Source: Bacteriovorax sp. BSW11_IV (GTDB taxonomy: Bacteria; Bdellovibrionota; Bacteriovoracia; Bacteriovoracales; Bacteriovoracaceae). From it: a stretch of DNA of 54,292 nt. A program made the translations under genes and the position numbers. Under the pieces are notes generated by a model, which was not told where the DNA came from, ran no database searches, and saw only the letters and a list, made by a program, of their open reading frames with translations. The stretch is from positions 1 to 54,292 of the forward strand of contig NZ_AUNE01000055.1 in NCBI RefSeq assembly GCF_000447755.1, given 5' to 3'. Positions 19,652 through 38,635 of this stretch are shown here, piece after piece; position 1 is the stretch's first letter, and the number at the start of each line of letters is the position of its first letter.

Positions 19652-19673
19652 TTTGAGTTTTAAATTCAAAATG

Positions 19674-19700
19674 AAAAGGCCCTCTAAAAGGGCCTTTTTT
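19674..19700. terminator. Bidirectional terminator ending the lipid cluster
   Basis: Stem AAAAGGCCC (19674-19682) / GGGCCTTTT (19690-19698), 7-base loop and T-runs on both sides. It closes the subtilase gene on plus and the TPMT-like gene on minus, whose stop codon is at 19699. Confidence 0.92.
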
Positions 19701-20364
19701 ATTTTTGAGCCAAATGGTAGACAACAAATTGAGTTTTTGTTGCACCTGCATTTTGATGGCGTTTAGGAACGACAGAATCACCTCTGTTAAGAATTTCAAT
19801 CGAATAATGATTCTCAAATAAGTTCATGATTTCATCTTCTAAAATTGAAAATGGCGGGCCCACGTCAGGGACTTGAGTCTGTTCATAAGTTTGCATAAGA
19901 ATCTTTGTATCTCCACTTGAAAGATTGCAAAGATGTTGCGCATACTTTTGTCGCATCTCTTTTGGAAGTGCAACAATACTTGCTCTGTCATATACGTCAA
20001 ATTTACCAAGATCTTCTTTTGTGAGATCAAAGAAAGAGCCCAAGTACAGAGCTATATTTTTACTTCTATAAATTGAGAATTTTTCATTTTTTTCAATTTC
20101 AAAAGAAAGACTGTTTTCAATAAAAAAATCCTCTACGGCCTTTTCTGCAATTTCAACTCCAATGACATTGTGGCCATTCTCTAATAGCCATAGCATATCG
20201 AGAGATTTTCCACATAGGGGAACAAAAACATTTTTAGTCTTGTTAAATATCTTTGGTCCAATAGTTGTTAACACTTTATTTGGGGCACTTTGATGAAAAC
20301 CAGTCATGCCTTTATCCCATGCTTCTATCCAAAAATCTTTTTCCACTTTTAGGCCTTTATTCAC
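19699..20364 (-). CDS. Thiopurine S-methyltransferase-like enzyme
   Basis: A 221-residue class I SAM methyltransferase of the TPMT family. Diagnostic segments are DFWIEAWDKGMTGFH near residue 10, VFVPLCGKSLDMLWL near 47 (SAM site) and HNVIGVEIAEKAV near 69. In bacteria the family methylates thiols, selenite or tellurite compounds, or halides. The GTG start at 20364 lies inside the end of the PEP-utilising gene (8-bp overlap), so it is the last gene of the five-gene minus-strand lipid operon and the operon terminator follows. A role in methylating a product of that pathway is an inference from position. Confidence 0.85.
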   Translation of the reverse strand: MNKGLKVEKDFWIEAWDKGMTGFHQSAPNKVLTTIGPKIFNKTKNVFVPLCGKSLDMLWLLENGHNVIGVEIAEKAVEDFFIENSLSFEIEKNEKFSIYRSKNIALYLGSFFDLTKEDLGKFDVYDRASIVALPKEMRQKYAQHLCNLSSGDTKILMQTYEQTQVPDVGPPFSILEDEIMNLFENHYSIEILNRGDSVVPKRHQNAGATKTQFVVYHLAQK

Positions 20365-23038
20365 TAAGGATTTCGATTAATCCTGTTTCTCCATTAATTT
20401 CAACCATCATACCGCTTTTCAATCTCTTTGTCAGATCCTTCACACTTACAATTGTTGGTAGTCCCATTTCCCTTGCCACTATGGCAGAGTGGGAGAGTAG
20501 TCCGCCCCTTTCCACAAGGAGGGCACTAATCGATGGATATAGCGGAATCCAGCCTGGGTCAGTTCTTTTAGCGACAACAATTTCTCCATTTAAAACTAAG
20601 TCGTCTTCTGGACCGTTGATTACTTTAATCACGCCTCGAATAACTCCTGGGCAGCAGCCGATACCGCGCATTTGATTTTCTTTCAAATCTCCAAGTTCAA
20701 TAGGTGTTGGTTCTTCAAAAATATTATTGTGCCAATAAACAGGACCTCGAGTATGAAAGCGTGGTTTAGGATCTTCGCTATTTTCATACTCATGAAATTC
20801 TTTCTTTCGAATATTTATAAGCGCTCTTAAATCTCGTGTCGGCATTGTTCCTTCAAGTCCGGCCTTAAGTTCTTGTAGAGTAATGAAAAAGATATCTTCG
20901 CGATTGTCGATAATATTTCTTTTTGTATAGTCACTGCCAATGGCATAGAACATTCTTCTCACAATTCCATAGACACGTGTGCGACAAAAACGTGTGTTTT
21001 CTCTATTCATCACGGCCTTTCTTGCATGTTTTAGCGACCATTTATAGATCAATCCTTTAAGACCAGAAATATTCTTTGATAACATTTCTTCAGCATTGTT
21101 TCTGATAGCCTTTTCTCTTTTTTCAAATTCATGTAAATCAGTTTGACCAGAGTTGATGATATTCTTTAGAAATATAAAGAAAAGAGAAGGGTCTTGGTAA
21201 AGGTCTTTTTGTTCAAGTTTCATCTCACTCATACATCTAAAACCGTAACGATCAATATAGTCTGTGACAATTTTATGGAAACTTTGAAATTTACTCTGGC
21301 GTAAAAGTTCAATTAAAATATCATTGTCATGTTCAAAGAGAAATTCTCTGAGTTCAATGTCTTTTTCAACAACTCCCGCAATCCTTATGAGCTCTTTTGT
21401 CGGCATGGCTGATTCAAGATTTCCATTTCCTGCTAGAAGATCATTATGGAAATTTGCCCCTAGGTGTGATAGCCACGTCTCTGTGAGTTTTTTAAATATT
21501 CCAAAGTGCACCATACATAGAAAGTCATTAATGATTGGAGCATGCCAGCGCCATAGCATTTCTTTTTCAAGATCATGGTATTTAAGATAGATGGCGTCCG
21601 CTGGCATGGACTCAAAATCAATTTTCTTATACTTTTCATAAGTTTTATAGAAATAATCGAGAAAATTATCGACAACATTTTGTGCATTAAGATGGAAGTA
21701 AAAAAACTTCATTCCCGTTAAAATTTTTCTAATTTTAGAACCTAAAGTATTTTGAAATGATGGAGGTCTTACTCTGTCAGCGATCTCATTTTGAAGGGCC
21801 TCATTTGTCCCCATCATTGTTTCCATAAAGGCCCTGTTGTACTTGTAGCCAGGTAGAATACTTGTCAGTTTGTACCAGTTTAATAAATTGTAATAAACAC
21901 GACCATTGAAATGTCCGAGCATATTTTTTAAGAAAAAATCCATTTCCTTTATATGCTTGTGTGGGACCATTAAGACTTCACAAAATTGAACATACACTTG
22001 GTGATACACATAATGGGCAAAACCAAACGTTAATGGCCTTGTTATGCCTCCGTAGCTTTCGACAATATTGGAGTTGTCCCACATATACAGTTGTCCTTTT
22101 GAACAAGCTACTTCTGTCGTAATTGGTCTTGCTTGCAAGATATAGATCTTTCCATCTTTTATGGCCCATTCAATATCTTGAGGGAAGTGATATAAATCTT
22201 CAATCCTCATACCAAGTATATATAATTGCCCCAGTTCGGTACTATTAAGAGATGAAGCATCCATTAAAGAGTCAGGAACACTGGCTTCTTTTGGTGCCTG
22301 ATTTATATGATCAGCGAGGAGTTTCTTTTCTTTTTTTACAATTTCTTGATTATTAAGGGCACCGTTTTCTTTATTAAGTGCATATGTATCGGCATCTAAG
22401 AGTCCGCTTACCAAACCCTCGCCAACACCATAAACGGAATTAATAAGCATCTCATCACCACTGGTTGTAACAGGGTTTGCTGTAAACATAACTCCACTTT
22501 TATCAGGATCAATCATTTCTTGAATAACAAGCGAGACTTGAATATTTTCATTTTTAAGATTGTTTTCCCTTCTATAGCTTAAACAACGATGACCAAAGGC
22601 CGAGGTCCAGCATTTTTTTATGGCCTTTAAGAATTTATCTTCTTCGCTGATATAGAGATGGCTCTCTAGCATACCTGCAAAAGAGTGGGCGCCTCCATCT
22701 TCATCGAGGGCCGATGATCTAACGGCGATAACTTTATCTCCAAAGCCTCTTTTAAGTTCTAAGAGAAACGCTGTGAGCTTTTCATCTATTGGAGTTTGAT
22801 CAATCAATATTTCAATTTGCTTTGCTTTGTCTTCTTCACTTATGTCCATGAGAAGTATGTCCGCTATTTTTATGTCTAGTCCGCTCGTTTTTGCAAAGTG
22901 GTTAAAACTGTGTGGTGTAAGTACTTTAAATTCTGGTACTGGAAGTCCTGCTCTTCCAAGAATGTAGAGATTTAACCCTTTTCCGCCACAGTATTTTTTT
23001 GCAATAAATGAATCACTGTTTTTGTCGATAATAATCAT
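20357..23038 (-). CDS. PEP synthase / rifampicin-phosphotransferase-like enzyme
   Basis: This 893-residue protein combines an N-terminal ATP-grasp domain of the PPDK_N type with a C-terminal phosphohistidine swivel domain. The N-terminal part has GGKGLNLYILGRAGLPVP, VRSSALDEDGGAHSFAGM near 110 and SGVMFTANPVT near 180. The swivel domain has GGLLSHSAIVAREMGLPTIV near 845, with the catalytic His in LSH. There is no C-terminal PEP/pyruvate TIM barrel, so it matches Rph-type phosphotransferases rather than true PpsA. The central 400 residues, which in Rph hold the substrate domain, are unlike those I know. It sits in a lipid operon, so the target may be a hydroxyl on a lipid or isoprenoid; that is inference. 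Confidence 0.82.
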   Translation of the reverse strand: MIIIDKNSDSFIAKKYCGGKGLNLYILGRAGLPVPEFKVLTPHSFNHFAKTSGLDIKIADILLMDISEEDKAKQIEILIDQTPIDEKLTAFLLELKRGFGDKVIAVRSSALDEDGGAHSFAGMLESHLYISEEDKFLKAIKKCWTSAFGHRCLSYRRENNLKNENIQVSLVIQEMIDPDKSGVMFTANPVTTSGDEMLINSVYGVGEGLVSGLLDADTYALNKENGALNNQEIVKKEKKLLADHINQAPKEASVPDSLMDASSLNSTELGQLYILGMRIEDLYHFPQDIEWAIKDGKIYILQARPITTEVACSKGQLYMWDNSNIVESYGGITRPLTFGFAHYVYHQVYVQFCEVLMVPHKHIKEMDFFLKNMLGHFNGRVYYNLLNWYKLTSILPGYKYNRAFMETMMGTNEALQNEIADRVRPPSFQNTLGSKIRKILTGMKFFYFHLNAQNVVDNFLDYFYKTYEKYKKIDFESMPADAIYLKYHDLEKEMLWRWHAPIINDFLCMVHFGIFKKLTETWLSHLGANFHNDLLAGNGNLESAMPTKELIRIAGVVEKDIELREFLFEHDNDILIELLRQSKFQSFHKIVTDYIDRYGFRCMSEMKLEQKDLYQDPSLFFIFLKNIINSGQTDLHEFEKREKAIRNNAEEMLSKNISGLKGLIYKWSLKHARKAVMNRENTRFCRTRVYGIVRRMFYAIGSDYTKRNIIDNREDIFFITLQELKAGLEGTMPTRDLRALINIRKKEFHEYENSEDPKPRFHTRGPVYWHNNIFEEPTPIELGDLKENQMRGIGCCPGVIRGVIKVINGPEDDLVLNGEIVVAKRTDPGWIPLYPSISALLVERGGLLSHSAIVAREMGLPTIVSVKDLTKRLKSGMMVEINGETGLIEILSE

Positions 23039-23048
23039 TCTCTATTTC

Positions 23049-23903
23049 CTAGAAAGTAAGAGTTATATTTGTAATAAAAAATAAAATTATAAAAATTGAA
23101 CTAATTGAGCGAAAAAGTTTTCCTGCCCAAATTTTATCTGTCATTAAGTAGGGAAGCATTAAAATGAATGAAGTTAAAACAACGCCAATCAATCTGTAAG
23201 ATAGTTCATTGTTGTGAGCAAGTGTTACTAAATAGGTTGCGACCAAAATCTGACTAAACGTAAGAATGAAGGCCCCTGCTTTTCCAAAAATATTACTGTA
23301 GGTCTGAACCTTCTTCTCTTCAGAATTAGTAAATGTTTTGCGTCCAAATTCGAAAACGTTGAAACAAAAATAACAAGCAAGTGAACTTTGCCAGAAATTT
23401 AAAGGATTGTCTGTAAAGGCGCTAAAAGTTCTTAATGAGAGAAGGACAACTACAAATGTATGAGTTAGTGCATAAGTTGTAAGTTTGTTCTCTAAAAACT
23501 TTGAGATAAAAAACTCTTTATACATAAGCAGTGAATAGCTCCATGCCAAAAGGGTAAACATCTTGGTTGTTCCAGATTCATTCATTGTTAGTATGAATTC
23601 AAATACAAAAGTGGCCACAATGGCCATTCTCACATCTTTTAAAGTTAGTAGCCCTCTGGGAAGTGGGCGAGTAGGGTTATTTATAAGATCCGTTTGATAA
23701 TCTTTAATTTCATCATAAAGTCTCAGTTTAAAGAAAAATGATAGACAAAAGAGTAGTCCCCATAAACTTTTTGGGTTTCCAAAAAGGCCGATTGCCCCAC
23801 CCATTGCTAGATGATAGAGAACAAATAGGCCGATCATAACGATATGAATTGCAGGATCAAATCTCTCATTTGTAAATTGAATGAAGGCCCTCATTTTTCC
23901 CAT
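23049..23903 (-). CDS. UbiA-superfamily membrane prenyltransferase-like protein
   Basis: The 284-residue protein has about eight or nine membrane helices. The Asp-rich loop of UbiA enzymes is present as RLYDEIKDYQTDLINNPTRP near residues 60-80 followed by LPRG, matching the NDxxDxxxD-type motif, with the NPTRPLPRG pattern conserved. The second Asp motif is degenerate (FEFGRKTFTNSEEKK near 190). UbiA enzymes transfer an isoprenyl chain from a diphosphate to an acceptor within the membrane. The ATG shares one base with the stop of the ligase gene upstream (TAATG), so the two are translationally coupled. The acceptor is unknown. Confidence 0.78.
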   Translation of the reverse strand: MGKMRAFIQFTNERFDPAIHIVMIGLFVLYHLAMGGAIGLFGNPKSLWGLLFCLSFFFKLRLYDEIKDYQTDLINNPTRPLPRGLLTLKDVRMAIVATFVFEFILTMNESGTTKMFTLLAWSYSLLMYKEFFISKFLENKLTTYALTHTFVVVLLSLRTFSAFTDNPLNFWQSSLACYFCFNVFEFGRKTFTNSEEKKVQTYSNIFGKAGAFILTFSQILVATYLVTLAHNNELSYRLIGVVLTSFILMLPYLMTDKIWAGKLFRSISSIFIILFFITNITLTF

Positions 23904-26266
23904 TAAAGTATCTCTCTTAGTTTATTGTATTCAACTTTTGAGTGGTGACGTGGGTCCATTGGAATATTTTCTACACAAATAATCTTATCTACTGGAATGG
24001 CATTTTTATTCATCAGTCTCATGATTTCTTTGTGGGCCAACTCTTCATTATATTGATCCAAGTTCTTCTCGTTGATCGAATAAACACAATATGTGGCCTC
24101 ACCTAGTTCACTATGTTCTACACCCAAATAGGCCGCATGTTTAACAAATGGTAGTCTTTTCAAAATCACTTCTGCTCTTACAGGAAAAAGGTATTCACCA
24201 TCTCTTTGAATGGCATTATGGATGCGCCCTACAAGCCATAGGTTGCCATCATGATCCATTTTTCCCAGATCCCCAGTTCTGTGCCAAATAAGACCTTGAT
24301 GGTCCTTGATTTTACTTTTCTTAAAGGCGTCTTCATTGTTGTAATAGCGCTCACACACGTGCTCACCTTGAACAATAATTTCACCAACTTCGCCCTGGGC
24401 CCTTTCCCATTGTGCCCATTGCTGATCACTATGTATTTCGATAGGTCCTTTTTCAATTTTGATGAATTTTACTTTTAATCCTTCGTCAAAATGACCAACA
24501 TTGACCCCTTCTTCAACAAATTCTACATCTCGCTCAGAGCTTTCTTTTAACATGTCATTATCTGCAATATGGGCCATCGGTTCAACTTCAGTTGAACCAT
24601 AAAGGACAAGCACTTGTGCAGAAGGTGCGGCCTTTTTCATATTTCTTACATCATCTTTTGAGACAGGTGCTCCTCCCGTAATAATTCTTCTGATATTTGG
24701 AAGAGTTAAATTGTTGTCATTACAAAATTTTGAAAGTCCATTCATTAAGGAAGGTGATAGGGTTGTACAAGATACATTTTGTGTCGATATTTGTGTGTAG
24801 AGAATCATGGCATCCATTGGATTTGGCACACCTACATCAATGGCCGGTAAAATAGTTGATACGCCAGCTGCTATATTGTTTAATGAGAAAATTGGAAATG
24901 CTGGAATGTCACAATCATTTGTCTCATAAGGGATATGGCGGTTGAGGGCATAGTGTTGTGAGGCCAAAAAGCGATGTGAGCGATCCGCCCCTTTTGGTGT
25001 TCCCGATGATCCGGTTGTAAATGTAATGAGTGCTGTATGCTCTTTTTCAACTGCCTCAATATCGGCCCACTCATTACTTGAAATCAGCTTTTCAAAACTA
25101 GTTGTGTATTCGTTATCAGTTTGTCCCACTGAAATTTTTGTTGCGATGGCATCAATCGCATTAACGCCTTTTAAGTATTGGAAGGCCTTTTCTATACTAA
25201 TAATGGCCACGGGATCAACGACCTTTGCAGAAACATCGAGCTGATCTTTTCTGGCCCAGCTGTCTAGAAAGACTGCGATGGCCCCAATCTTTTGTAGCGC
25301 AAACATAGTCGTATACATCGGAAACGACATCGGAATAAAGACAATAACGCGATCACCTTTTTTTATCCCAAGTTTTTTTAGTCCACCGGCCACAATTCCA
25401 ACGGCCTTATGAAGATCCATAAAAGATGCATGCTGATGTTCAAGTTTATCAGCTTCTTTGTGTGCAAATTTTAAAATGTTTTCATAAGGAACCCAAGAAA
25501 GAACATTTTTGTCTGGCATTTTTTTGATATGCTCTTCTAGGAATGAGCAGACGTTATTCATCTTATGCTCACCTGGATAATAACCTTTTTTTGGTGCTTC
25601 TAATGCGCCATGAATAAAAGATACGCAGGCCTGTGTGGCAGTCCAAGGCAGGGCGTGTCCCATTCCTTCAAGTTTTAATTCATCTGTTAGAACGATTTTT
25701 TCTTTTAGTCTTTCAATTTGCTTAGTTGGCATAATTGATTGATCAGCATCACCATAGATGAGATAAATTTTTATTTTATGTTTGTTTAAATTTTTTAATT
25801 CTTTTTCAATCTCTTCTAAAGAGACTTGCTTTTCATTGATACTATTAATTAACAGATCGACATCGAGGTAGTTTTTTGAACATTCTCTGTAGCTTTGGGG
25901 AACGTCCTGTGGCGAAGCTGTCTTTAAGAGCATATCTTCAATACTTTTATTCATTGCTTTACTAATTAGTGCGCGACCAACTACTGGCATGTTGATTAAT
26001 GCGAGTTTTAAAGCTGACTCTTTTCTTGGGAAAATATAGGGAGCGATTAATATGAGGGCCTGTGTATTTTCAGGGTTTCGGTTTGCTCTTTTAATGGCGC
26101 TCAAGCATCCGAACGAATATCCAAGTTCAACTGTTTGTGTAAGAGATGGCGTTATGTCGTTCTTAGTATTAAATGTTACCTTTGCTTTGAGTTTATCTTT
26201 TAACAAGGAAAAGTCATGAGGATGACCAGGGGAGCCGTGGTGGATATTGACTGTAATTTCGCTCAT
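23903..26266 (-). CDS. Alpha/beta-hydrolase fused to acyl-AMP ligase (OleB-OleC-like)
   Basis: This 787-residue protein has two parts. Residues 1 to about 215 are an alpha/beta-hydrolase with nucleophile GYSFG (Ser51), Asp in YGDADQS and His in GMGHALPW. The rest is an ANL-type adenylating enzyme: P-loop TFTTGSSGTPKGADR near 415, YGSTEVEP near 550, RTGDLGKMDHDG near 668 and a C-terminal DPRHHSKVEYNKL with the catalytic Lys. The C-terminal D-RH-K pattern recalls OleC, the beta-lactone synthetase, and the order hydrolase-ligase recalls the OleBC fusion of actinobacteria. The thiolase OleA is absent nearby. A fatty acyl or hydroxyacyl substrate is likely. ATGA overlap with the formyltransferase gene. 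Confidence 0.82.
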   Translation of the reverse strand: MSEITVNIHHGSPGHPHDFSLLKDKLKAKVTFNTKNDITPSLTQTVELGYSFGCLSAIKRANRNPENTQALILIAPYIFPRKESALKLALINMPVVGRALISKAMNKSIEDMLLKTASPQDVPQSYRECSKNYLDVDLLINSINEKQVSLEEIEKELKNLNKHKIKIYLIYGDADQSIMPTKQIERLKEKIVLTDELKLEGMGHALPWTATQACVSFIHGALEAPKKGYYPGEHKMNNVCSFLEEHIKKMPDKNVLSWVPYENILKFAHKEADKLEHQHASFMDLHKAVGIVAGGLKKLGIKKGDRVIVFIPMSFPMYTTMFALQKIGAIAVFLDSWARKDQLDVSAKVVDPVAIISIEKAFQYLKGVNAIDAIATKISVGQTDNEYTTSFEKLISSNEWADIEAVEKEHTALITFTTGSSGTPKGADRSHRFLASQHYALNRHIPYETNDCDIPAFPIFSLNNIAAGVSTILPAIDVGVPNPMDAMILYTQISTQNVSCTTLSPSLMNGLSKFCNDNNLTLPNIRRIITGGAPVSKDDVRNMKKAAPSAQVLVLYGSTEVEPMAHIADNDMLKESSERDVEFVEEGVNVGHFDEGLKVKFIKIEKGPIEIHSDQQWAQWERAQGEVGEIIVQGEHVCERYYNNEDAFKKSKIKDHQGLIWHRTGDLGKMDHDGNLWLVGRIHNAIQRDGEYLFPVRAEVILKRLPFVKHAAYLGVEHSELGEATYCVYSINEKNLDQYNEELAHKEIMRLMNKNAIPVDKIICVENIPMDPRHHSKVEYNKLREIL

Positions 26267-27006
26267 AGTTTTATTTTCCTTTTAATTTTTGTTATTTGTT
26301 TTAAAGTTGGTGTTTTGTAATAAATGATATTTTCACTGGTGTTAGTTGTGCCATATAGTTCGCGCTTATTTGAAATGATATCAATGACTCTTTCACAGCA
26401 ATTTGCTTCTAGCTCCATGCTCTTTTTTTGATACTCAATAAAAGAATGAATTTCATTTTTCTTAGAGACAATCTGTTGTTGGAGAATTCTTCCATCATCA
26501 AGTTTTGGCGTCATTTCATGGATGGTAAATCCTGCATCTTTATTTTGGTACAAAGACTGTAGATCACACAATGTTCCCCTTTGATCGGGAAGAAGACCAT
26601 GATGAATATTTATGCACCCAATAGTAGGGGCCTTCAAAATGGCCTTTTTGTAAATGTAGCGCGTTCTTGAATTGATGATGAGATCAATGCTTTGGTTTTT
26701 TACGAAATTTATAAATTCATCGCAATTCACCGTCTTAAATTCATGAAATGAAGCATTGTAACCAATCGCCAACTTTTCTCTTTGTTGGTGATAGTGCCTA
26801 TTTAAGAGTTGGTTTTTGATTAGATTGGCCCCTGTTTTTCTTGCGCCCGCAAGCATGAGTGCCAGTCCTTTTAGGACATGTTCGTTGGTACTATTATCTA
26901 AGACTATGAGGTAGTGAATCTTGCCTGATGCCAAGAGGAGTTCAATAAATTTTGAATAATTGTTCTCTATAAAGGTCACTTTACTCGTAATGAGGGCCGT
27001 TTTCAT
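26263..27006 (-). CDS. Formyltransferase-family enzyme (Fmt/PurN-like)
   Basis: The start is the ATG at 27006, with AAAGGAA 5 bases upstream, giving 247 residues; a longer frame to 27084 has no ribosome site. The formyltransferase catalytic segment is CINIHHGLLPDQRGTL near 140, holding the Asn and His of the N-H-D triad, and the Asp is in KLDDGRILQQ near 180. The short C-terminal extension lacks the tRNA-binding domain of methionyl-tRNA formyltransferase. It is the first gene of the minus-strand lipid operon and overlaps the ligase gene by 4 bp. It may formylate an amino group on a sugar or lipid head group, as ArnA-type enzymes do; substrate unknown. Confidence 0.82.
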   Translation of the reverse strand: MKTALITSKVTFIENNYSKFIELLLASGKIHYLIVLDNSTNEHVLKGLALMLAGARKTGANLIKNQLLNRHYHQQREKLAIGYNASFHEFKTVNCDEFINFVKNQSIDLIINSRTRYIYKKAILKAPTIGCINIHHGLLPDQRGTLCDLQSLYQNKDAGFTIHEMTPKLDDGRILQQQIVSKKNEIHSFIEYQKKSMELEANCCERVIDIISNKRELYGTTNTSENIIYYKTPTLKQITKIKRKIKL

Positions 27007-27137
27007 ATAATTCCTTTGCCTTATTGTAGCTTCTGGCCGCTTTATTTTTAACCATACAGTAAATTTTATAGGGAGCTGTATCATCTAATTACAGGTTCTT
27101 ATACAATGGGCCAACACACAGAAACTTGGATACCACC

Positions 27138-28103
27138 ATGCAAGAAATTAGTATTTATATAAATGCAAAGTCGAGCACTTCGGATCGTTTTGATTGGCAA
27201 AAAGGCCTTGAAGAAGTTCTTTTTCGCTCTCAGCTCAATTTTAGAAGTCCCACCACGATTGCTGAATTAGAAGAAGGTCTAGAAAGTGATGCCAAAAGAG
27301 GTGTTGATTCTATTATCTCCATTGGTGGTGATGGCACAGTTAATACTATGATTCAAAAACTTGCGGGTACTAATTTAAATCTTTACGTTGCCCCAGGGGG
27401 AACGGCCAATGACCTTGCAAGCGAGCTTAATTCAAAGCGAGTAATGAAAGATCTTTCACATGTTGTTCGCGCCAAAAATACAAAAAAAATGGATCTCATC
27501 AATATTAATGGCCGCTATATGGCCACCAATGGTGGTATTGGTTTTGCGGCCAACGTTGCTGAAAAAATAAATGATCTAAGAAAGAAATTTCCGGCCTTTA
27601 AAAGACTTATGGGAGTTACGGGAAGGGCGATTTATCCCTTCATGGCCGCGAGCGAGTTTTTAAGTATTAATTATAAAATTTATGAATTTTATATTGAAAG
27701 TGAACAGTTCACAGGCAAAGTGAGATCCCCCCTTATTATGGTGAATAACCAGAAAACAATCGGGCAAACATTTGAAGTGGCACCACAGACTAAAAATGAT
27801 GATGGAAGCTTTAACGTGACTATTCTCACGCATAATAATAGAGCAAAACTTGCCAATTGTATGATTCGCCTTGCCAGCGGAGCTGATCCGGCCCTTGATC
27901 CAAATATTATTACTTTTGAAACGAAGAAAATGTCTATTACAAACCTAACTGATGAAAAACTATCTTTCTTTGGTGACGGTGAGGTTTTTGATAACCTACA
28001 AAATACTTCTCACTTTGAAATTAGTGTCCTTGAAAAAGGTCTTAATGTTTTTTATAACGATCTCGATCCCTATGCACAAGGGATGGAGGTTCATCTTTCA
28101 TGA
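27138..28103 (+). CDS. Diacylglycerol/sphingoid-base kinase family (YegS/LCB5-like) protein
   Basis: The 321-residue protein starts at the ATG at 27138 (a TTG lies 4 codons upstream; neither has a clear ribosome site). The lipid-kinase catalytic motif SIIGGDGTVNTMI-type sequence (GGDGTVN) is near residue 60, and the nucleotide loop APGGTANDLASEL near 85. The C-terminal region has FFGDGE, the strand that returns to the active site. It would phosphorylate a lipid alcohol such as diacylglycerol, a sphingoid base or a fatty alcohol glyceride on the membrane. It is the first gene of the plus-strand lipid operon, overlapping the next by ATGA, and diverges from the formyltransferase gene. Confidence 0.85.
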   Translation: MQEISIYINAKSSTSDRFDWQKGLEEVLFRSQLNFRSPTTIAELEEGLESDAKRGVDSIISIGGDGTVNTMIQKLAGTNLNLYVAPGGTANDLASELNSKRVMKDLSHVVRAKNTKKMDLININGRYMATNGGIGFAANVAEKINDLRKKFPAFKRLMGVTGRAIYPFMAASEFLSINYKIYEFYIESEQFTGKVRSPLIMVNNQKTIGQTFEVAPQTKNDDGSFNVTILTHNNRAKLANCMIRLASGADPALDPNIITFETKKMSITNLTDEKLSFFGDGEVFDNLQNTSHFEISVLEKGLNVFYNDLDPYAQGMEVHLS

Positions 28104-29128
28104 GAGACTTCCTCTTAACTGGTGCAAGCGGCCATATTGGTGAATCTGTTCTTAATCATCTTCATCTTGTAGATGATATTCGTCTTCATTGTCCCTTACG
28201 TCCAAATACATTTGATCGTCTATCTGAGAAGCTAAAAAGCAAATATCCGAGTGTTGAATTCTTTGCCTGTGAGCTTTCAGATATTGAATTAATCGAATAT
28301 ATGGAACAGAAATCTTTTGAAGGTATTATCCATATTGCTGGTCTATATGATTTAGATGCAAATAATGGAGATCTTTATTTGAGTAATGTTGTGGCGTCAA
28401 TGGGTTTAGTGAATGTTTGTAATCGGCTAAAAATATCTCGCTTCTTACATATTAGTACTGTTGCCGTGGCCGGTAGTATTAAGTCTGAATTAAAAGAATC
28501 TCCGCTTAAAAATAAAGACAAATTCTACAATGAATATGAACGAACAAAATATATGGCGGAGGATTTTATTGTTAATTCTCTCCATCCTGATTGTTCACTA
28601 ACAGTCATGAGACCGGGGATTGTTCTTGGTAGTAGTGATGCTTCAGTTCAAATTAAATTAGACGGTCCATATTTTGTTATTAATTACATTAATCAGTTCA
28701 AGAATATTTTAAAAAAATTATTCTTTCTTTATTTTCCCTATAATCCCATTAGTGTGATGCCTTTTTGTAATGTCGACATGGTTACTCAGGCGATCTGTTC
28801 ATGGATTGTTGAAAAGAAAGAGTATGAAAAATATTATAATATTGTTTTTAACAACAACCCTAATGTTGAAATTTTTCTGAAAGAAGTTCTTGCTGCTTTT
28901 GATATTCGTTTAAAACTTATACCAACTAGAAAGATTACACTTTTAAAAAAAGTTTTACCCTATGTGAATATACCAGCAAATCTTTATGATTATCTATTCT
29001 ATGGACCGACCATTTCTAATGAATTATTTCAACGAGATTTTTCAAAGGTTGCGACCAATTATGAAGATTACTTCGATTCTTTTATTAGTAATTATAAAGC
29101 ACAAAACAAAGGCCTAGCAGGTGAGTAA
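28100..29128 (+). CDS. SDR of the thioester-reductase / epimerase type
   Basis: An extended short-chain dehydrogenase of 342 residues. The nucleotide motif TGASGHIG is at residues 7-14, STVAVAG near 115 provides the catalytic Ser/Thr, and the YxxxK pair is in YERTKYMAE near 146. VMRPGIVLG is near 170. The pattern fits the NAD_binding_4/thioester-reductase and fatty-acyl-reductase branch as well as sugar epimerases. A C-terminal region of about 120 residues, hydrophobic and aromatic, may bind an acyl chain. It overlaps the kinase gene (ATGA) and the acyl-ACP reductase gene (8 bp), so it is likely to act on the aldehyde or keto product. Confidence 0.78.
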   Translation: MRDFLLTGASGHIGESVLNHLHLVDDIRLHCPLRPNTFDRLSEKLKSKYPSVEFFACELSDIELIEYMEQKSFEGIIHIAGLYDLDANNGDLYLSNVVASMGLVNVCNRLKISRFLHISTVAVAGSIKSELKESPLKNKDKFYNEYERTKYMAEDFIVNSLHPDCSLTVMRPGIVLGSSDASVQIKLDGPYFVINYINQFKNILKKLFFLYFPYNPISVMPFCNVDMVTQAICSWIVEKKEYEKYYNIVFNNNPNVEIFLKEVLAAFDIRLKLIPTRKITLLKKVLPYVNIPANLYDYLFYGPTISNELFQRDFSKVATNYEDYFDSFISNYKAQNKGLAGE

Positions 29129-31166
29129 AACAATTAAGCACCTTGTCTCTGTCTCTTTTGGGATGGAAGACTATAATTATGATAAAATTGTAGAATTTGG
29201 AGGTGAAAAATTTCGTATCACTCAATATTCAACCAATTTTAATCTCGATTCAACTCTAGCTCTTATAAAAAAATATGACGGTAATTGTGATGCTTTTTGT
29301 ATTTCAGGCATACCTTCGCAAATTACTTATGGAAAAAATAAGTATTTTACTCACCCTCAAAGTTCAAAAGTAAAGGCCAGTGCATTTGAAACTCCAATAT
29401 TTGATGGACAGGCCCTTAAAGATATTTATATCCCTTATGTTTTAAGAAAAGATATTGTGGCCCGCTCTAATTTTTATCAGGGTCAAAGCTTCGCACTCTA
29501 TTCAGGTGCCCTGTCGCGCAGAGAGGCCGAAGTCCTATCTGAGTCGGGAGTTTCTTTTACTTTGGCCGATATGTATTTCTTCTTAAAAATACCCAAACTA
29601 TTAAAGTCACTTTCTTCATTAAATCTTCTTATTGGTTCACTTGTTCCTTTTATGAAGAAAAAAACTCTAAGAAGAAGCCGATTATCATTATTTAGTACAA
29701 ACACTCCTAATATGAGTGAGTTTTTTAATAATGACGTTTTTGTCGGTACGGAAGCTTCATTTAACTATATCGATCTCACACACCTAAAAGGGAAATCTGT
29801 TGTTCTTGACATGGTAACTCCGCAGATTACTCGAAAATTTCAGGCAGCTGGTGTTGCAGATGTTTCTTCCCTCCTAGATCCAAGCATTGGTCTTGATGGC
29901 CTAAACTTTTCCATAATTGAGGCCCTAATTTACCTGCAGTCAAAGCAAAGTGAGCTTAGAGAAAAGGATATTTTAAGTTGGATTGAATCTCAAAATACTA
30001 AAGTTCACGCCATTGAACTCTCGCCAAAAAGTGTCGATGACAAATCGCGATTCGCGTTTATTATTCATCCTCTTTCTGGTGAATATTTACTGAAGCATCC
30101 ACTTCTTAGAAAACTTCCTCGCAGTAAGTTTATGACGAAAATGGCCGAAGATGCTTTTTCTTATATGCCTGGTTTTTACTATGGAAGTATTAAAAATATC
30201 ACTAGTAAAAAAAATGGTAAAACTGTAGAGGGTCTTGTTTACGCTGTGACTGAGACGCCTAAAAAATTAATGCAAAAAAATCCAGAGAGCGTTTATAAAA
30301 AACTTGTCTCTCTATCATATGATGCCAAAAACCATGGCGCTTCGATAATAGGTCTAGGAGCTTATACAAAGATTGTTGGTGATGCAGGGGTTACTGTAAA
30401 CAATAGAAGTCCAATACCTGTGACGACTGGTAATTCATTGTCGGCCTGCTCGACTTTGTGGGCAGCAAAATATGCGATTGATAAACTTGGTTTTGTTCCT
30501 AAGGAAGATGGCCGTTATCAAGGTCGTGCCATGGTCGTTGGTGCCACTGGTAGTATTGGGGCCGTGAGTGCGAAAGTATTGTGTAAGAATTGGAAAGAAA
30601 TTATTTTGGTTGCCCCAAGGGCCCATAAACTTCTTGAACTTAAAGAAGAAATTTTAAAGCTTTTTCCGGCAATGGAAATTCGTATCGGTACTAATCCTGA
30701 TGAGTTTTCTCATGAAACGGATCTCATTATTACAACGACCAGTGGTCAAGGGGAGAAAATTTTAGACATCTCTCAAGTTAAGGCCGGTGCCGTAATATGT
30801 GATGTCTCTCGCCCTTTTGATATTAGCAAAGAAGAGGCCTTAACCAGACCAGATGTTATGGTTGTGGCCTCGGGTGAAGTTCTTTTGCCTGGTGAAGTTG
30901 AAATGAAAATTGATATTGGCCTTGAGGGTGATATGGTTTATGCCTGTCTTGCTGAAACGGCACTATTGGCCCTAGAGGGCCGCTATGAATCTTTCACACT
31001 TTCGCGAAGAATCGATTATAATAAAGTTATTGAAATAGATCGCATGGCGCGTGAACATGGTGTTCGTTTGGCCACGATTATGGGTCATAATGGTGTGTTA
31101 ACGGACGAAGAATTTGATTTGTGTCGTGAGCATGCGCTAGTAAAAAGGGAGTCTACTTGTGACTAA
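29121..31166 (+). CDS. Long-chain acyl-ACP reductase (AAR) with extra N-terminal domain
   Basis: A GTG start yields 681 residues. The last 340 match cyanobacterial acyl-ACP reductase, which makes fatty aldehydes from acyl-ACP. Residues in order: AFIIHPLSGEYL near 310, NHGASIIGLGAYTKI near 405, VTTGNSLSA near 438, the NADPH loop VVGATGSIG near 473, and YACLAETALLALEGRY near 608, where Cys matches the acyl-thioester Cys of the cyanobacterial enzyme; RxxHGxxLA ends the domain. The first 300 residues are an additional domain starting KHLVSVSFGMEDYNYD, with DAFCISGIPSQI and TPIFDGQALKD, which from memory resembles proteins annotated as quinate 5-dehydrogenase. The normal AAR is about 340 residues, so this is a fusion. 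Confidence 0.85.
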   Translation: MSKTIKHLVSVSFGMEDYNYDKIVEFGGEKFRITQYSTNFNLDSTLALIKKYDGNCDAFCISGIPSQITYGKNKYFTHPQSSKVKASAFETPIFDGQALKDIYIPYVLRKDIVARSNFYQGQSFALYSGALSRREAEVLSESGVSFTLADMYFFLKIPKLLKSLSSLNLLIGSLVPFMKKKTLRRSRLSLFSTNTPNMSEFFNNDVFVGTEASFNYIDLTHLKGKSVVLDMVTPQITRKFQAAGVADVSSLLDPSIGLDGLNFSIIEALIYLQSKQSELREKDILSWIESQNTKVHAIELSPKSVDDKSRFAFIIHPLSGEYLLKHPLLRKLPRSKFMTKMAEDAFSYMPGFYYGSIKNITSKKNGKTVEGLVYAVTETPKKLMQKNPESVYKKLVSLSYDAKNHGASIIGLGAYTKIVGDAGVTVNNRSPIPVTTGNSLSACSTLWAAKYAIDKLGFVPKEDGRYQGRAMVVGATGSIGAVSAKVLCKNWKEIILVAPRAHKLLELKEEILKLFPAMEIRIGTNPDEFSHETDLIITTTSGQGEKILDISQVKAGAVICDVSRPFDISKEEALTRPDVMVVASGEVLLPGEVEMKIDIGLEGDMVYACLAETALLALEGRYESFTLSRRIDYNKVIEIDRMAREHGVRLATIMGHNGVLTDEEFDLCREHALVKRESTCD

Positions 31167-32253
31167 AAAGTATTTTAGCGAGCTAAATTACAGTCTAGGT
31201 AATGAAGATACACGCCTTGAAGTGGCCATGGTGAAAAAACTTTCGCCTAAAAATATTTTCGCAATTGCTGGATGTGGGTCCCGCGCTTTACCATTGGTTT
31301 TAGATGGCGTTAAAAGACTCGTTTGTGCAGATGTCTCACAAAATCAGCTCTACATCACAGAACTTCGTCGTGAGACCATTCGCCATTTTACTTTTCAAGA
31401 TTTTCTTTTATTTTGGGGTTTTCCCCCTTATGGCTCATATGATTATTCTCACAAAAGACGTGAGCTTTTCTATACCTTGAGTCTGTCAGATGAGGCCAAC
31501 GTCTATTTTTTAGAATTATTCAAAGATAATGGCTGGAAGTCGATCCTTTACTTAGGTAAGTGGGAGAAGACGTTTAAGGTTCTCGCAAAAATTAATCGTT
31601 CAATTTTAGGTAAAAATTATGATCGCATTTTCAATTTTTATCATATTGGTGATCAGGCCCGATATTATGAGAATGATTTTCCATTTAAGAAATGGCAAAT
31701 GGTGCTCTTTGTTTTAGGTAATAAAGCGATGTTTAATGCTCTTTTATATAAGGGAGACTTTATTAAAAAGAACGTTTCCGAGAGCTACCTTGATTATTAT
31801 CAAAATGCTTTTGAACACCTTATGACTGAACAGCTGGCCCGCGAAAGTTATTTCATGCATCTTTGTTTTTTCGGTGAAATCTCTCATGCTGATGGTAATC
31901 CTGTCGAGGCCACTGAGGAAAACTTTAATACTGTTAAAAAGAATCTCGCAGAGGCAAAAGTCGATTTAGTGGCCACAGATATGGTGAGTGCCATTAAAAA
32001 TGAAGGGCCTTTTGACTTTTTGTCTTTATCTGATGTTCCAAGTTATTTTGCAGGGGATCTCGAGAAGAATTTTCTCCAAGATATAAGGCCAGGTTTGGCC
32101 CCTGGGGCCGTTTTAGTGATTCGCTCATACCTTCGTATACCTGAGGCCGATGAATCGGGCTTTGTGGATATTACGCCTCAGTTTGGACCTGAGATATTCG
32201 ATGAAAAGGTTCAAATGTATAAAGTTAAAGTTTTAAAATTTACTGGTGAATAA
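31159..32253 (+). CDS. BtaA-like (DUF3419) aminocarboxypropyl transferase
   Basis: The 364-residue protein starts at GTG 31159, inside the end of the reductase gene. Its first part is ELNYSLGNEDTRLEVAM, then FAIAGCGSRALPLVLDG (SAM loop) and VCADVSQNQLYITELRRETI, matching the BtaA/DUF3419 pattern of Y-x-x-x-W/N-EDxRL, a Gly-rich loop, then D-x-x-x-x-Q. The later SDVPSYF matches the SD motif of the family. BtaA transfers the 3-amino-3-carboxypropyl group of SAM to diacylglycerol in betaine lipid synthesis. No BtaB methyltransferase is adjacent, so the product may stay a homoserine-type lipid or a different acceptor may be used. It ends the plus operon before a terminator. Confidence 0.78.
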   Translation: MTKKYFSELNYSLGNEDTRLEVAMVKKLSPKNIFAIAGCGSRALPLVLDGVKRLVCADVSQNQLYITELRRETIRHFTFQDFLLFWGFPPYGSYDYSHKRRELFYTLSLSDEANVYFLELFKDNGWKSILYLGKWEKTFKVLAKINRSILGKNYDRIFNFYHIGDQARYYENDFPFKKWQMVLFVLGNKAMFNALLYKGDFIKKNVSESYLDYYQNAFEHLMTEQLARESYFMHLCFFGEISHADGNPVEATEENFNTVKKNLAEAKVDLVATDMVSAIKNEGPFDFLSLSDVPSYFAGDLEKNFLQDIRPGLAPGAVLVIRSYLRIPEADESGFVDITPQFGPEIFDEKVQMYKVKVLKFTGE

Positions 32254-32256
32254 AAA

Positions 32257-32286
32257 AAGGCCTCCCAATGGGAGGCCTTATTATTT
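32257..32286. terminator. Bidirectional terminator between lipid operon and nrdA
   Basis: Perfect 10-bp stem AAGGCCTCCC (32257-32266) / GGGAGGCCTT (32270-32279) with a 3-base loop. On minus it has a long T-run and ends nrdA; on plus it ends the lipid operon. Confidence 0.93.
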
Positions 32287-32301
32287 GCATAGCTTTTTGA
32301 A

Positions 32302-34659
32302 TTATGATCCACACATCTCGCATGACTCTGGATTATCCAGTGAACATACAAGTGCTGCCATATTTTCTTCTACAGTCTTTTTCTTGTTTTCAACTGTGAA
32401 CTTAACAGCGTTAACAGCAGCGCGTGATCTCAGGTAGTACATACCTGTCTTTAGACCAGCTTTCCAAGAATAGAAGTGCATAGAAGAAAGCTTACCAAAG
32501 TTAGGGTCTTGCATGTGAACGTTTAATGATTGTCCTTGGTCGATGAATGGTGCACGACCTGCTGACATGTCAATTACAGCTCTTTGCTTAATTTCCCAAA
32601 CAGTTTTATATAGCTCTTTTAGATCCTCAGGAATTGCTTGAATACTTTGAATTGAACCATTGTTTGCAATGATTTCAGTTCTGATTTCTTCATTCCATAG
32701 ACCAGCTTCAATTAAATCTCTTACTAGGTATTTGTTAACAACGGCAAACTCACCAGAAAGAACACGTCTAACATAAATATTAGAAGTGATCGGCTCAAAA
32801 CACTCGTTGTTTCCAAGAATTTGAGAAGTTGATGCTGTTGGCATTGGAGCAACAAGTAGAGAGTTTCTTACTCCGTGCTCAAGTACTTCGCTTCTTAGTG
32901 CTTCCCAGTTCCAACGACCACTTTGTGGTTTTACACCCCAAAGATCAAATTGGAATTGACCTTGAGAAATTGGAGAACCTTGGAAAGTCTCGTAAGCACC
33001 ATCTTTGATCGCCATATCTTTTGAAGCTGTTACCGCTGCAAAGTAGATTGTTTCAAAGATGTCGTTATTTAGTGTAAGGGCCGCTTCAGACTCGAATGGA
33101 AGTCTCATCATAAAGAATGTATCAGCAAGACCTTGAACACCAAGACCAATTGGTCTGTGTCTCATATTTGAGTTACGGGCTTCAATTACTGGGTAGTAGT
33201 TGATGTCGATAACTCTGTTAAGGTTTTGAGTCATTCTGTAAACGATATTGTATAGACCCTCGAAATCGTAAACAGGCTTTCCTTCTTCAATTTTAACAAA
33301 TTTGTTAAGAGCAACTGAAGCAAGGTTACAAACTGCAACTTCATCTGGTGAAGTATATTCCATGATTTCTGTACAAAGGTTAGATGACTTAATCGTACCA
33401 AGATTTTTTTGGTTTGATTTTTCGTTAACTGAATCTTTGTAAAGCATGTATGGGTAACCAGTTTCAATTTGTGATTCAAGAACAGCAAACCATAGGTCTT
33501 GAGCACGAACTGTCTTTTTACCTTTTCCTTCTTTTTCATAACGAGTGTATAGAGCATCAAATTCAGCCCCATAACAGTCTGATAGACCTGGACACTCGTG
33601 AGGACACATAAGAGTCCATGGACCATCTTCTTCAACACGCTTCATGAATAGGTCTGGAATCCAAAGACCGTAAGAAAGATCTCTTGCTCTTTGCTCTTCC
33701 GCACCTGTGTTTTTTCTTAGTTCTAAGAAATCATGAATATCTGCGTGCCATGGCTCAAGGTAAATCGCAAATGAACCTTTACGCTTACCACCACCTTGGT
33801 CTACATATCTAGCAGTGTCGTTGAATACTTTAAGCATTGGAACAATACCGTTACTTGTTCCGTTAGTTCCTTTGATGAAAGAACCTTTTGCTCTAATATT
33901 GTGGATAGACACCCCAATACCACCGGCCGATTGAGAAATAAGCGCCGTTTGCTTTAGAGTATCGTAAATACCTTCAATAGAGTCACCTTTCATTGTCAGA
34001 AGGAAACAGCTTGAAAGTTGTGGCTTGTTTGTTCCAGAGTTAAATAGTGTCGGAGTTGCGTGAGTAAAAAGCTTCTTCGACATACCTGTGTAAGTTTCAA
34101 GGGCCGCATCAAGATCATTCATGTGCATACCAACAGAAACTCTCATTAGCATTTGACCTGGTCTTTCAACAATTTTACCGTCCATTTTTAGGAGGTATGA
34201 TTTCTCAAGTGTTTTGAAACCGAAGTAATCGTAGCTAAAATCTCTTTTATCAACAATTGCTTTATCAAGTCTTTCTGCGTTTGCCATAACTGTTTCGTAA
34301 AGTTCTTTAGAAACTAGGGGAGCGTGCTCACCGTTAGCTGGGTTTACGAAGCTGTACATAGCTTTAATATTTTCAGAGAAGCATCCCTTTGTTTCTTTGT
34401 GTAGGTTAGAAACAGCTATTCTACCAGCAAGGATAGAGTAGTCTGGGTGCTTCGTCGAAAGATAGGCCGCAGTCTCAGCAGCAAGCTTATCTAGCTCTTG
34501 AGTTGTGATTCCGTCGTAGATTCCTTCGATTACTTTTTGAGTAATAAGAGTCGGGTCTACAAAATTTCTGTCTAATTTGAATGATAGAGCTTCAATTCTA
34601 TCAGTAATTTTATCAAATTTGATTGGCTCTCTTTCACCACTTCTTGTTATAACGTACAT
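32302..34659 (-). CDS. nrdA: Ribonucleoside-diphosphate reductase, large subunit (class Ia)
   Basis: This reduces ribonucleotides to deoxyribonucleotides. The 785 residues carry an N-terminal ATP-cone ([17 protein letters not shown]) and the full catalytic set: [19 protein letters not shown] near 217, [11 protein letters not shown] and CNLASVALN, and [12 protein letters not shown]-type [15 protein letters not shown] near 605. The C-terminus ends ESCEMCGS, the redox-active Cys pair. Long stretches match eukaryotic RRM1 as I recall it, for example [20 protein letters not shown] and IDINYYPV. It follows nrdB by 3 bp. GGCC sites are rare here (about four in 2.4 kb), in contrast to neighbours. Confidence 0.97.
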
Positions 34660-37579: not shown

Positions 37580-38635
37580 TTAGGCCGGACTTAGGTTTCT
37601 AAAGTGATCTAGCAGATAAGAGTACTGTTGGCACAATTGTCCAAGAGTGTCGCTATCGCCTAGGCGACGAGAGCGCTTTTGTTCCATTAAGTTAGTGCGT
37701 AGTTGCTCAAAAATTGTCACAAGTCTATCGTTTAGGCCGCCATTTTCACTGCTCACAAGTTTTTTCTCCATTTGCACTTGTAGCTTGGCCAACTCTATAT
37801 CTTCTACGGCAGTAATCTTTAAATTTTTGGCCAGACCAAGCTTACTCAGTGTCCATATGATCCATTTGCTTGGATCAAAGTGAAACCACTTGATACCATT
37901 TCGGTAGTCTGTTTGAAATGTGTGGTGGAAATTGTGGTAACCCTCTCCGTATGTGAATATGGCCATGATCCAACTATCTTTGGCCGTGTGCTCACTAGAA
38001 TAAGTCACACTACCAACCATGTGACAAAGAGAGTTGATGAAAAATGTTGCATGGTGAACAAAAACTACTCTAAATAATCCTGCGAGTACAAAACCCTGAA
38101 GAAAACTTCCGAAGGCCATACCGATTAACCCTGGAAGAAAAAGTCCCATGAATGCGCATAGGGGTAGGTAGTATTTGTGCTGCCACATAACAAGCTTGTC
38201 ATTGACCAAATCCTTTGGAAATTGATTCATGTACTTTTCTTTTTCTTTTAAAAGTACCCAACCAATGTGAGCGTAAAAAAAGCCTTCTCCAATATTGTAC
38301 GGGTCTTCTTCTGTATCAACATTTGTGTGGTGGCGACGGTGGTCTGTGGCCCACTTCAAGCAAGAATTTTGAAAAGTTGCTGCTCCGAAAAGAAGAAAAA
38401 AAAGCTTAACACTCCAATGGGCCTTGTACGCCCTATGGGCAAATAATCGGTGATAGCCAGCTGTAATTGAAAATCCAGTCGCAAAGTAAAAGAAAATCAG
38501 TAAAGCATACTGAGGCATACTCACTGTTTGAGTTAAGAAGATGTAAGTCGTCAGTGTAATGGCCAAAATTGGTGTCACAATAAGGAACACTGTATTGGTC
38601 AAGTTTAAGTTTTTAAGCTGATAGCGCGTATTCAT
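37580..38635 (-). CDS. Membrane acyl-CoA/acyl-lipid fatty acid desaturase
   Basis: The ATG at 38635 has AAGGGAG 5 bases upstream and gives 351 residues. This is a stearoyl-CoA desaturase type enzyme: four membrane helices and three His boxes, HRLFAH (62-67), HRRHH (99-103) and GYHNFHHTF near 240, which bind two irons. The NVDTEEDP after the second box is typical of delta-9 desaturases. It introduces a cis double bond in a long acyl chain using oxygen. A C-terminal extension of about 70 residues is charged and probably cytoplasmic. It is monocistronic on minus. Confidence 0.92.
   Translation of the reverse strand: MNTRYQLKNLNLTNTVFLIVTPILAITLTTYIFLTQTVSMPQYALLIFFYFATGFSITAGYHRLFAHRAYKAHWSVKLFFLLFGAATFQNSCLKWATDHRRHHTNVDTEEDPYNIGEGFFYAHIGWVLLKEKEKYMNQFPKDLVNDKLVMWQHKYYLPLCAFMGLFLPGLIGMAFGSFLQGFVLAGLFRVVFVHHATFFINSLCHMVGSVTYSSEHTAKDSWIMAIFTYGEGYHNFHHTFQTDYRNGIKWFHFDPSKWIIWTLSKLGLAKNLKITAVEDIELAKLQVQMEKKLVSSENGGLNDRLVTIFEQLRTNLMEQKRSRRLGDSDTLGQLCQQYSYLLDHFRNLSPA

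Follow-up and report, generated by a model that had tools for sequence, protein, structure and literature searches.

What do nine tightly packed genes make when they bring together a UbiA-like membrane protein, an acyl-AMP ligase, a formyltransferase, an acyl reductase and a distant relative of the betaine-lipid enzyme BtaA? In this article, I consider such a cluster at positions 19,674 to 32,286 of contig NZ_AUNE01000055.1 of Bacteriovorax sp. BSW11_IV (RefSeq assembly GCF_000447755.1; contig C55 of a 3.65 Mb genome), a member of the family Bacteriovoracaceae in the phylum Bdellovibrionota; the window is the whole stretch that was analysed, 54,292 nucleotides in length. A preliminary description of the letters alone had proposed one undescribed pathway of nine genes (A to I below) centred on a fatty aldehyde. 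The comparison of related loci gives a different centre: the conserved core is C, D, B and I together with an N-acylating enzyme, either the formyltransferase E accompanied by a serine-hydrolase domain or an acyltransferase of the GNAT family, and it is not the aldehyde part. It is fairly probable that a single pathway, encoded by B to I, builds an exported amphiphile bearing a capped amino-acid group. The genes are as follows.

19699-20364, minus strand: A, methyltransferase of the TPMT family (TIGR03840, 215.1 bits, cut-off 223.2); accessory, not core
20357-23038, minus strand: B, PPDK_N plus PEP-utilisers protein of the Rph/PigC/RedH kind, without the C-terminal domain for phosphoenolpyruvate (PEP); core
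23049-23903, minus strand: C, atypical membrane protein of the UbiA fold; core
23903-26266, minus strand: D, fusion of a serine alpha/beta-hydrolase domain with an acyl-AMP ligase, PRK09274 being the best NCBIfam match; the ligase part is core
26263-27006 (open reading frame open to 27084), minus strand: E, formyltransferase; the alternative to GNAT
27126-28103, plus strand: F, lipid kinase of the DAGK/YegS family; start at TTG 27126 or ATG 27138
28100-29128, plus strand: G, short-chain dehydrogenase/reductase (SDR) related to the N-terminal half of PRK07201
29121-31166, plus strand: H, very probable acyl-thioester reductase (AAR/PigE-like) with an extra N-terminal domain
31159-32253, plus strand: I, DUF3419 protein related to BtaA; core

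Gene order was compared across 141 loci, namely the window, 40 stretches from the family, 20 from other families of the phylum and, out of 241 relatives in the named collection, the best 80; the 241 relatives came from a scan with alignment A1, a scan of genome contigs with the single H protein having given none. Merging the loci whose H proteins are at least 97% identical left 104 distinct loci, and setting aside 12 (L118, L126 and L132 to L141, from other groups or with H alone in an unplaced metagenome-assembled genome, MAG) left 92, which include a few MAGs labelled only 'Proteobacteria' and L127, labelled 'Betaproteobacteria'. F, G and H adjoin one another on the same strand in 77 of these 92 loci and F-G-H-I in 44, E-D-C-B are contiguous in 27, and both blocks occur in 24; many of the 15 loci without a contiguous F-G-H are cut by contig ends, and L120, L127 and L131 read F-H-I without G. 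All eight genes from B to I are also present in two genomes of genus g83 (G136, loci L162 and L204; G169, locus L207) and in one of genus g125 (G209, loci L164 and L205). Furthermore, G002, G086 and G079 carry F-G-H-I at one site and a complete E-D-C-B operon at another (L186, L187 and L188), and the coordinates of E and B place G049 and G068 among the split genomes as well, so that linkage alone does not explain why the two blocks co-occur. The test for recurrence of the genes, in order, outside this genome is strongly positive, and the opposite outcome, homologues scattered without conserved order, was tested and is not what the loci show. The proposed unit of nine shrinks to eight, A being an occasional neighbour found in only 5 of the 92 distinct loci; L022 adds a partial match at its edge.

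Co-occurrence across genomes tells the same story at a larger scale. Within the family H was counted at 400 bits or more, or as pieces at contig ends, and is present in 45 of 95 genomes (a search at E 0.001 tallied 56); B was counted at 838 bits or more, or as high-scoring pieces, and weaker PPDK-like matches of 240-700 bits were scored as no B, including a 602-bit B-like gene that adjoins I in G011. Given as both, first only, second only and neither, the 95 genomes read 41, 4, 4 and 46 for H and B, 43, 2, 5 and 45 for H and I, and 45, 0, 3 and 47 for B and I, the last pair becoming 32, 0, 0 and 30 in the 62 good genomes; E is in 30 of the 95 and never without H. Over the 290 genomes of the phylum, the figures are 79, 8, 10 and 193 for H and B, 84, 3, 12 and 191 for H and I, and 89, 0, 7 and 194 for B and I, leaving out two B matches below 700 bits (G033 and G076), with which B alone would number 2. 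Family f6 has H in 14 genomes of genus g83, and one genome of genus g61 in family f12 (G150) has a piece of H with no match to B.

H was not found at E 1e-30 in seven genomes of genus g61 (family f12) and in G075, although the core is present there; three of these genomes were looked at in detail. L182 and L183 from the former carry I-P450-D'-C'-B-GNAT with a DAGK gene and an FtsX protein and have no G in either stretch, and L184 from G075 has the order F-G-D'-C'-B-GNAT-I. The core also occurs beyond the phylum. In an operon of six genes (L200:523-8507), plasmid NZ_CP121116.1 of the alphaproteobacterium Roseinatronobacter sp. S2, on which H has no match, carries in a row a UbiA gene, B, DUF3419, two hypothetical genes and an AMP ligase, with profile scores of 86 bits for C, 635 for B, 62 for I and 196 for D, and 63 bits (E 2e-20) to GNAT for the second hypothetical; its UbiA protein has the same DExKDxxxD...EIGRK motif as C. 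In L182 to L184 and in L200, then, the set B, C, D, GNAT and I persists where H was not found, which removes the aldehyde step from the core. The earlier idea of the pathway is right in outline, yet by placing an aldehyde at the centre it had picked the less conserved half.

These same loci are what favours an alternative in which two functionally separate modules are merely kept near one another, F-G-H making alcohols or aldehydes for ordinary lipids and C-D-B-I with E or GNAT making an unrelated small molecule. L182 and L183, the Roseinatronobacter operon and also L184, which retains F-G, would fit it, as would the stretches from Marinobacter, Hahella, Ketobacter, Pseudohalioglobus and Desulfobacteraceae, in which H (full-length in Marinobacter, Hahella, Ketobacter and Desulfobacteraceae) stands without core genes. 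However, H and B sit together in 79 of the 290 genomes with only 8 and 10 exceptions, and I closes the F-G-H operon in 44 of the 92 loci yet follows B in its distribution, being with it in all 89 genomes counted, so that I consider two independent modules unlikely.

The second pattern is a replacement. Among 50 distinct loci with B (B proteins shorter than 600 residues left out, and GNAT called by a profile of four members that finds their relatives), E is present in 25, GNAT in 19, neither in 6 and both in none; for L162 and L164, two of the six, E and the hydrolase lie outside the first stretch, the remaining four being L099, L110, L175 and L180. The serine-hydrolase domain of D is found in 25 of the 25 E-type loci and in 0 of the 19 GNAT-type loci, and P450 genes occur in 11 of the 19 GNAT-type loci, 0 of the 25 E-type loci and 1 of the 6 others. 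E or GNAT directly adjoins I in, for example, L112, L115, L129, L116 and L100, and in some GNAT-type lineages the ligase and UbiA protein are fused (L048, L052). In L068, L069 and L074 a GNAT gene accompanies a B of the E-type clade, and C there is only 24-26% identical to that of the window, so that C, D and E or GNAT seem to be exchanged together. The exchange of E for GNAT leads to a prediction, namely that the product carries an amine that would be formylated in some lineages and acylated in others.

Turning to the proteins (families assigned with Pfam at E 0.001 and with NCBIfam models and their curated cut-offs), the family calls made from the letters agree with both resources, except that B has no PEP-binding domain and H carries an additional N-terminal domain. 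H has its reductase domain at residues ~310-670 behind some 300 extra residues, and matches the N-terminal region of PigE (162 bits with the PigE model, cut-off 850) and the model of cyanobacterial acyl-acyl carrier protein reductase, AAR (TIGR04058, 46 bits, below the cut-off of 450). Its C609 aligns with the cyanobacterial AAR C294 (numbering counted on the alignment), and of 100 distinct H proteins 97 retain this cysteine. A structure predicted with AlphaFold (mean pLDDT, the predicted per-residue confidence, 89.7) compares with AAR 6jzq_B at Z 33.2 (326 aligned, 2.8 Å) and with a carmabin terminal domain at Z 33, in a comparison that covers residues 305-668 only; for the N-terminal domain, Foldseek rows to aspartate carbamoyltransferases are weak, with a TM of about 0.4 and no range shown. 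Among solved structures the sequence of H matches 4ppm best (E 5e-39), an entry listed as 'Aminotransferase' that I take to be PigE. On alignment and predicted fold, H is very probably an acyl-thioester reductase that forms an aldehyde, and its naming as an acyl-ACP reductase was sound in that sense. H has the fold (Z 33), catalytic cysteine and NAD-binding motif in common with cyanobacterial AAR; it differs in the N-terminal domain and in the low score of 46 against 450 bits, and no ADO is among the nine genes. For PigE, reduction of a thioester intermediate to the aldehyde is reported from lysates, and its Cys296 occupies the place of AAR Cys294 (PMC8341465).

Two further observations concern H. 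Its N-terminal domain also stands alone as a protein of ~310-330 residues, in G007 (L025:5887-6843), G020, G045, G053, G070 and G077, with a full-length H elsewhere in five of these genomes and none in G077. In addition, three Desulfobacterota MAGs have tandem H pairs (open reading frames L138 12156-14240, L140 12566-14665 and L141 5674-7758) in which glycine replaces the catalytic cysteine of the second copy (YAGLAET), perhaps making it a non-catalytic partner subunit.

B exceeds the NCBIfam cut-off for 'phosphoenolpyruvate synthase' (NF004881, 1025 against 883 bits), and a PEP synthase has a PEP/pyruvate-binding C-terminal domain behind its mobile domain. At Pfam E 0.001 B shows only PPDK_N and the PEP-utilisers mobile domain at residues 817-886 of 893, with no PEP/pyruvate-binding C-terminal domain at that threshold, and as the mobile domain ends seven residues before the end there is no space for one; the name is thus probably a misannotation, here and in other carriers. 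The ATP-binding domain and mobile histidine domain are what is expected of an Rph-like phosphotransferase, and H850, presumably the phospho-histidine, is kept in 45 of 45 members. B scores 321 bits with the model of rifamycin phosphotransferase, Rph (NF041857, cut-off 999), 353 bits with PigC (NF052631, cut-off 1300) and 344 bits with RedH (cut-off 1350). The preliminary description gave it a possible phosphorylating step; B could equally be a ligase of the PigC/RedH kind.

These scores also raise the idea of a prodigiosin- or tambjamine-like route, with B as a PigC/TamQ-type ligase and H as a PigE/TamH-type reductase making a lipid-tailed small molecule. PigC has the same PPDK_N and mobile-histidine architecture as B, H shows homology in its C-terminal half to the region of PigE that acts as thioester reductase, and in Pseudoalteromonas xiamenensis B-like and H-like genes do sit with an annotated PigD gene. 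Set against this, no aminotransferase domain was found in H by Pfam or NCBIfam, the protein stopping after its reductase domain, the nine genes include neither PigD, bipyrrole nor MBC genes, B falls far short of the PigC/RedH cut-offs and H scores below that of PigE, B matches Rph as well, and the cluster has UbiA, DUF3419, formyltransferase or GNAT, and lipid-kinase genes that prodigiosin and tambjamine clusters lack. I regard such a route as distinctly unlikely.

C falls just under the Pfam UbiA cut-off (33.9 against 34.2 bits), and its predicted model (pLDDT 88.8) gives Z 18.9 to DGGGP synthase 6m31 (266 aligned, 4.2 Å) and 18.0 to UBIAD1; being tied within Z 1, neither was used to assign a function. 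UbiA proteins usually carry a second Asp-rich motif. All 25 aligned members of C have RxxDExKDxxxD, a modified form of the first Asp-rich motif, and none has the second, ExxRK standing invariant in its place, so that C shares with known members (DGGGP synthase, UBIAD1 and the membrane phosphoribosyltransferase 8j8j) the fold and, in modified form, the first Asp-rich motif, but not the second.

N-formyltransferases have an Asn-His-Asp triad, and N159, H161 and D196 of E (numbered from 27084) are invariant in 20 of 20 members, as expected of this activity. D joins an alpha/beta hydrolase to an AMP-binding domain, with S51, D175, H204 and K777 invariant in 16 of 16. Being a hydrolase-ligase fusion with 246 and 222 bits to the OleC models, D might be read as an OleBC fusion and G, with weak similarity to the OleD models (40 and 26 bits), as OleD, making a beta-lactone or olefin; an acyl-AMP ligase with OleC similarity, an SDR and a formyltransferase are what the locus has in common with OleABCD and lipstatin-type beta-lactone clusters. 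The nucleophile of OleB is, however, an aspartate, where D has its invariant serine, the OleC scores are far below the cut-offs of 850 and 900, and no OleA (thiolase/KAS III) lies beside the ligase or anywhere among the nine genes; the genome has four KAS III-type genes elsewhere, and one of these could be an OleA. An Ole-type pathway is hardly credible for this locus.

In the plus operon, F belongs to the DAGK family, with GGDG kept in 81 of 81 members, and G is an SDR/NAD_binding_4 protein whose G8, G11, G14, S119, Y146 and K150 are kept in 82 of 82, and whose match to PRK07201 reaches 102 bits, under the cut-off of 549. I has the DUF3419 domain (110.5 bits, cut-off 28.2), presumably the family of BtaA, and on family membership it would transfer a 3-amino-3-carboxypropyl group from S-adenosylmethionine (SAM); the addition of a homoserine head group that had been proposed for it likewise follows from the family, of which I is only a distant member, and is not supported beyond that. 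The domain of I and the wax-ester-type operon that holds H in Pseudohalioglobus invite a reading as betaine-lipid (DGTS-type) or wax-ester synthesis with extra genes. In that operon (L133) a full-length H homologue (37% identical) is followed by a G-related PRK07201 reductase (866 bits) and a WS/DGAT gene (424 bits), and Haliea L139 has H, a G-like gene of 686 residues and a third gene; the row fits an acyl-to-aldehyde-to-alcohol role for H and G, and it would presumably make wax esters. Its stretch, however, has none of B, C, D, E and I. I shares DUF3419 with BtaA only distantly, no BtaB-like N-methyltransferase is a regular member (near the cluster the only candidate is the sporadic TPMT-like A, the search for BtaB being confined to this neighbourhood), and B, C, D and E find no explanation in either pathway. 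WS/DGAT had no match in this genome, nor did the control genomes give one. I regard betaine-lipid or wax-ester synthesis as very unlikely.

On present evidence, then, prodigiosin-type, Ole, betaine-lipid and wax-ester pathways are not the fitting category. A DAGK-like kinase, an SDR and an acyl ligase resemble bacterial ceramide genes; a sphingolipid pathway was set aside, as no serine palmitoyltransferase is among the nine genes, to which the search for it was confined. The plasmalogen desaturase PF10520 has no match in the genome, and none was obtained with the control either. The ElbD/MXAN_1676 ether-lipid pathway of Myxococcus likewise activates and reduces acyl groups on the way to unusual membrane lipids (PMC9131029); its gene set differs, and it was rejected as a category. 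Within the literature searched, seen in part and with subscription journals and preprints outside its scope, no description of the cluster was found, nor any paper joining DUF3419 with UbiA, Bdellovibrio with betaine lipid, or Bdellovibrio with a biosynthetic gene cluster, lipid and formyltransferase, or combining three of acyl-ACP reductase, UbiA, phosphoenolpyruvate synthase and acyl-CoA ligase; papers on Bdellovibrio and UbiA did not, by their titles, concern such a cluster, and the accessible parts of PMC9131029, PMC8341465, PMC12228718 and PMC12419801 do not mention it. Within those limits, the statement that no described pathway has this combination stands.

Now considering B to I as a single pathway for an exported amphiphile, probably a lipid-like molecule of the envelope that is widespread in Bdellovibrionota, the observations are the gene order, the co-occurrence, the replacement of E by GNAT, the catalytic residues and the predicted folds of H and C; I infer the substrates, product and export, and the order of the steps is a guess. 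H would take an acyl thioester onto Cys609 and reduce it to a fatty aldehyde, G would reduce the aldehyde to an alcohol, and F would phosphorylate a lipid hydroxyl. The core would then supply and join the polar part: I may move 3-amino-3-carboxypropyl from SAM to a hydroxyl, the amine of this group would be capped by E with a formyl group or, in other lineages, by GNAT with an acyl group, D would adenylate a carboxylate, and B, by phosphoryl transfer or PigC-like ligation, and the membrane-bound C may form the last bond. ABC/FtsX proteins with LolA-like or MMPL proteins could carry the product to the outer membrane. In several lineages the neighbours of F-G-H or of I include LolA-like (PF17131), ABC and MacB/FtsX genes. 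An MMPL gene is next to I in L184 and L190, and is one gene away from I in L197 and from E in L187; such genes beside some copies, though not beside the window's, suggest export. Together with the lipid kinase and the reductases, these envelope-transport genes make the lipid-like product originally suggested plausible.

Several points weigh against the single pathway. Since the core exists without H, the genes for the fatty aldehyde may represent a pathway of their own or a separate input, 8 of the 87 genomes with H showed no B, and the Fisher tests on co-occurrence ignore phylogeny. The exclusivity of E and GNAT reflects only 2 changes, as a minimum, on the B tree, a quick tree with two long branches that meet, and in Pfam the GNAT-like gene of L200 scores no better than E 0.097. 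Transport genes of the LolA/ABC/FtsX type accompany only 16 of the 50 distinct loci with B, and none of these seeds matched in the window. I is only a distant member of DUF3419, and its transfer chemistry is putative. Purified PigE with NAD(P)H gave no reduction, the evidence coming from lysates and feeding (PMC8341465).

A broader proposal is more tentative, and I would put it slightly short of an even chance: that a core of five activities (an atypical UbiA protein, a PPDK-type ligase or phosphotransferase, an acyl-AMP ligase, a SAM-dependent DUF3419 enzyme and an N-formyl- or N-acyltransferase) makes a new class of exported lipid or lipopeptide-like molecule, the core running through the phylum (B and I together in 89 of the 290 sampled genomes) and recurring on an alphaproteobacterial plasmid, usually coupled within the phylum to a fatty-aldehyde/alcohol module. 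If true, a phylum that includes bacterial predators would hold a lipid or natural-product pathway hidden under the names 'phosphoenolpyruvate synthase', 'UbiA', 'DUF3419' and 'hypothetical', and UbiA proteins lacking the second Asp motif, like PPDK-type enzymes other than PEP synthases, would gain a context. Such a molecule could contribute to the predator's envelope or to its dealings with prey.

Some relatives elsewhere deserve mention. Between the DUF3419 and GNAT genes of the Roseinatronobacter plasmid, L200:4932-6248 encodes a membrane protein of 439 residues, without a phytol/dolichol kinase family in Pfam, that by its signature I take to resemble these kinases, and it would replace the lipid kinase F. 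A B-like gene adjoins a weakly UbiA-like gene in Streptomyces clavuligerus, and the B-like genes of two Streptomyces (L201:7024-13702 and L202:4669-13909) lie beside AfsA-type hotdog and isoprenylcysteine-methyltransferase-like genes. On a Rhizobium plasmid (L199:1820-8158) a DUF3419 gene stands in a row with KAS III, oxidoreductase, MBL hydrolase and 'CoF synthetase' genes; DUF3419 may be used in several unstudied pathways.

As for the layout of the window's own copy, all nine open reading frames were confirmed, in two divergent operons, A to E on the minus strand and F to I on the plus strand, and the coordinates of the back-to-back start match the preliminary description exactly. The tight spacing is likewise reproduced, with overlaps of 8 bp (A/B), 1 (C/D), 4 (D/E), 4 (F/G), 8 (G/H) and 8 (H/I) and a gap of 10 bp between B and C. 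The noncoding features are these.

19673-19699: bidirectional hairpin terminator closing the minus operon; the stem has 11 pairs, and the better T-tract serves the convergent plus-strand gene
27007-27137: divergent intergenic region with presumed promoters, between the conserved E start and the F ATG
32257-32279: bidirectional hairpin terminator closing the plus operon; the stem has 10 pairs, and the better T-tract serves the convergent nrdA

The intergenic limits follow from the conserved ATG of E at 27006, located by alignment and sequence, and the ATG of F at 27138. The terminators had been called perfect, which fits their stems only, because both are bidirectional and the better T-tract faces the convergent neighbour. 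Across the scanned 18500-34000, there are 21 terminator-like sites against a shuffle mean of 11.3 (standard deviation 3.3), and promoter-like sites are not enriched (45 against 45.6 in shuffles). The flanking genes are unrelated housekeeping genes, nrdA/nrdB on the right and a subtilase and a 2-hydroxyacid dehydrogenase on the left, and with such neighbours the limits of the cluster are sensible. A fatty-acid desaturase gene (PF00487) lies at 37580-38749, 5 kb to the right of the cluster.

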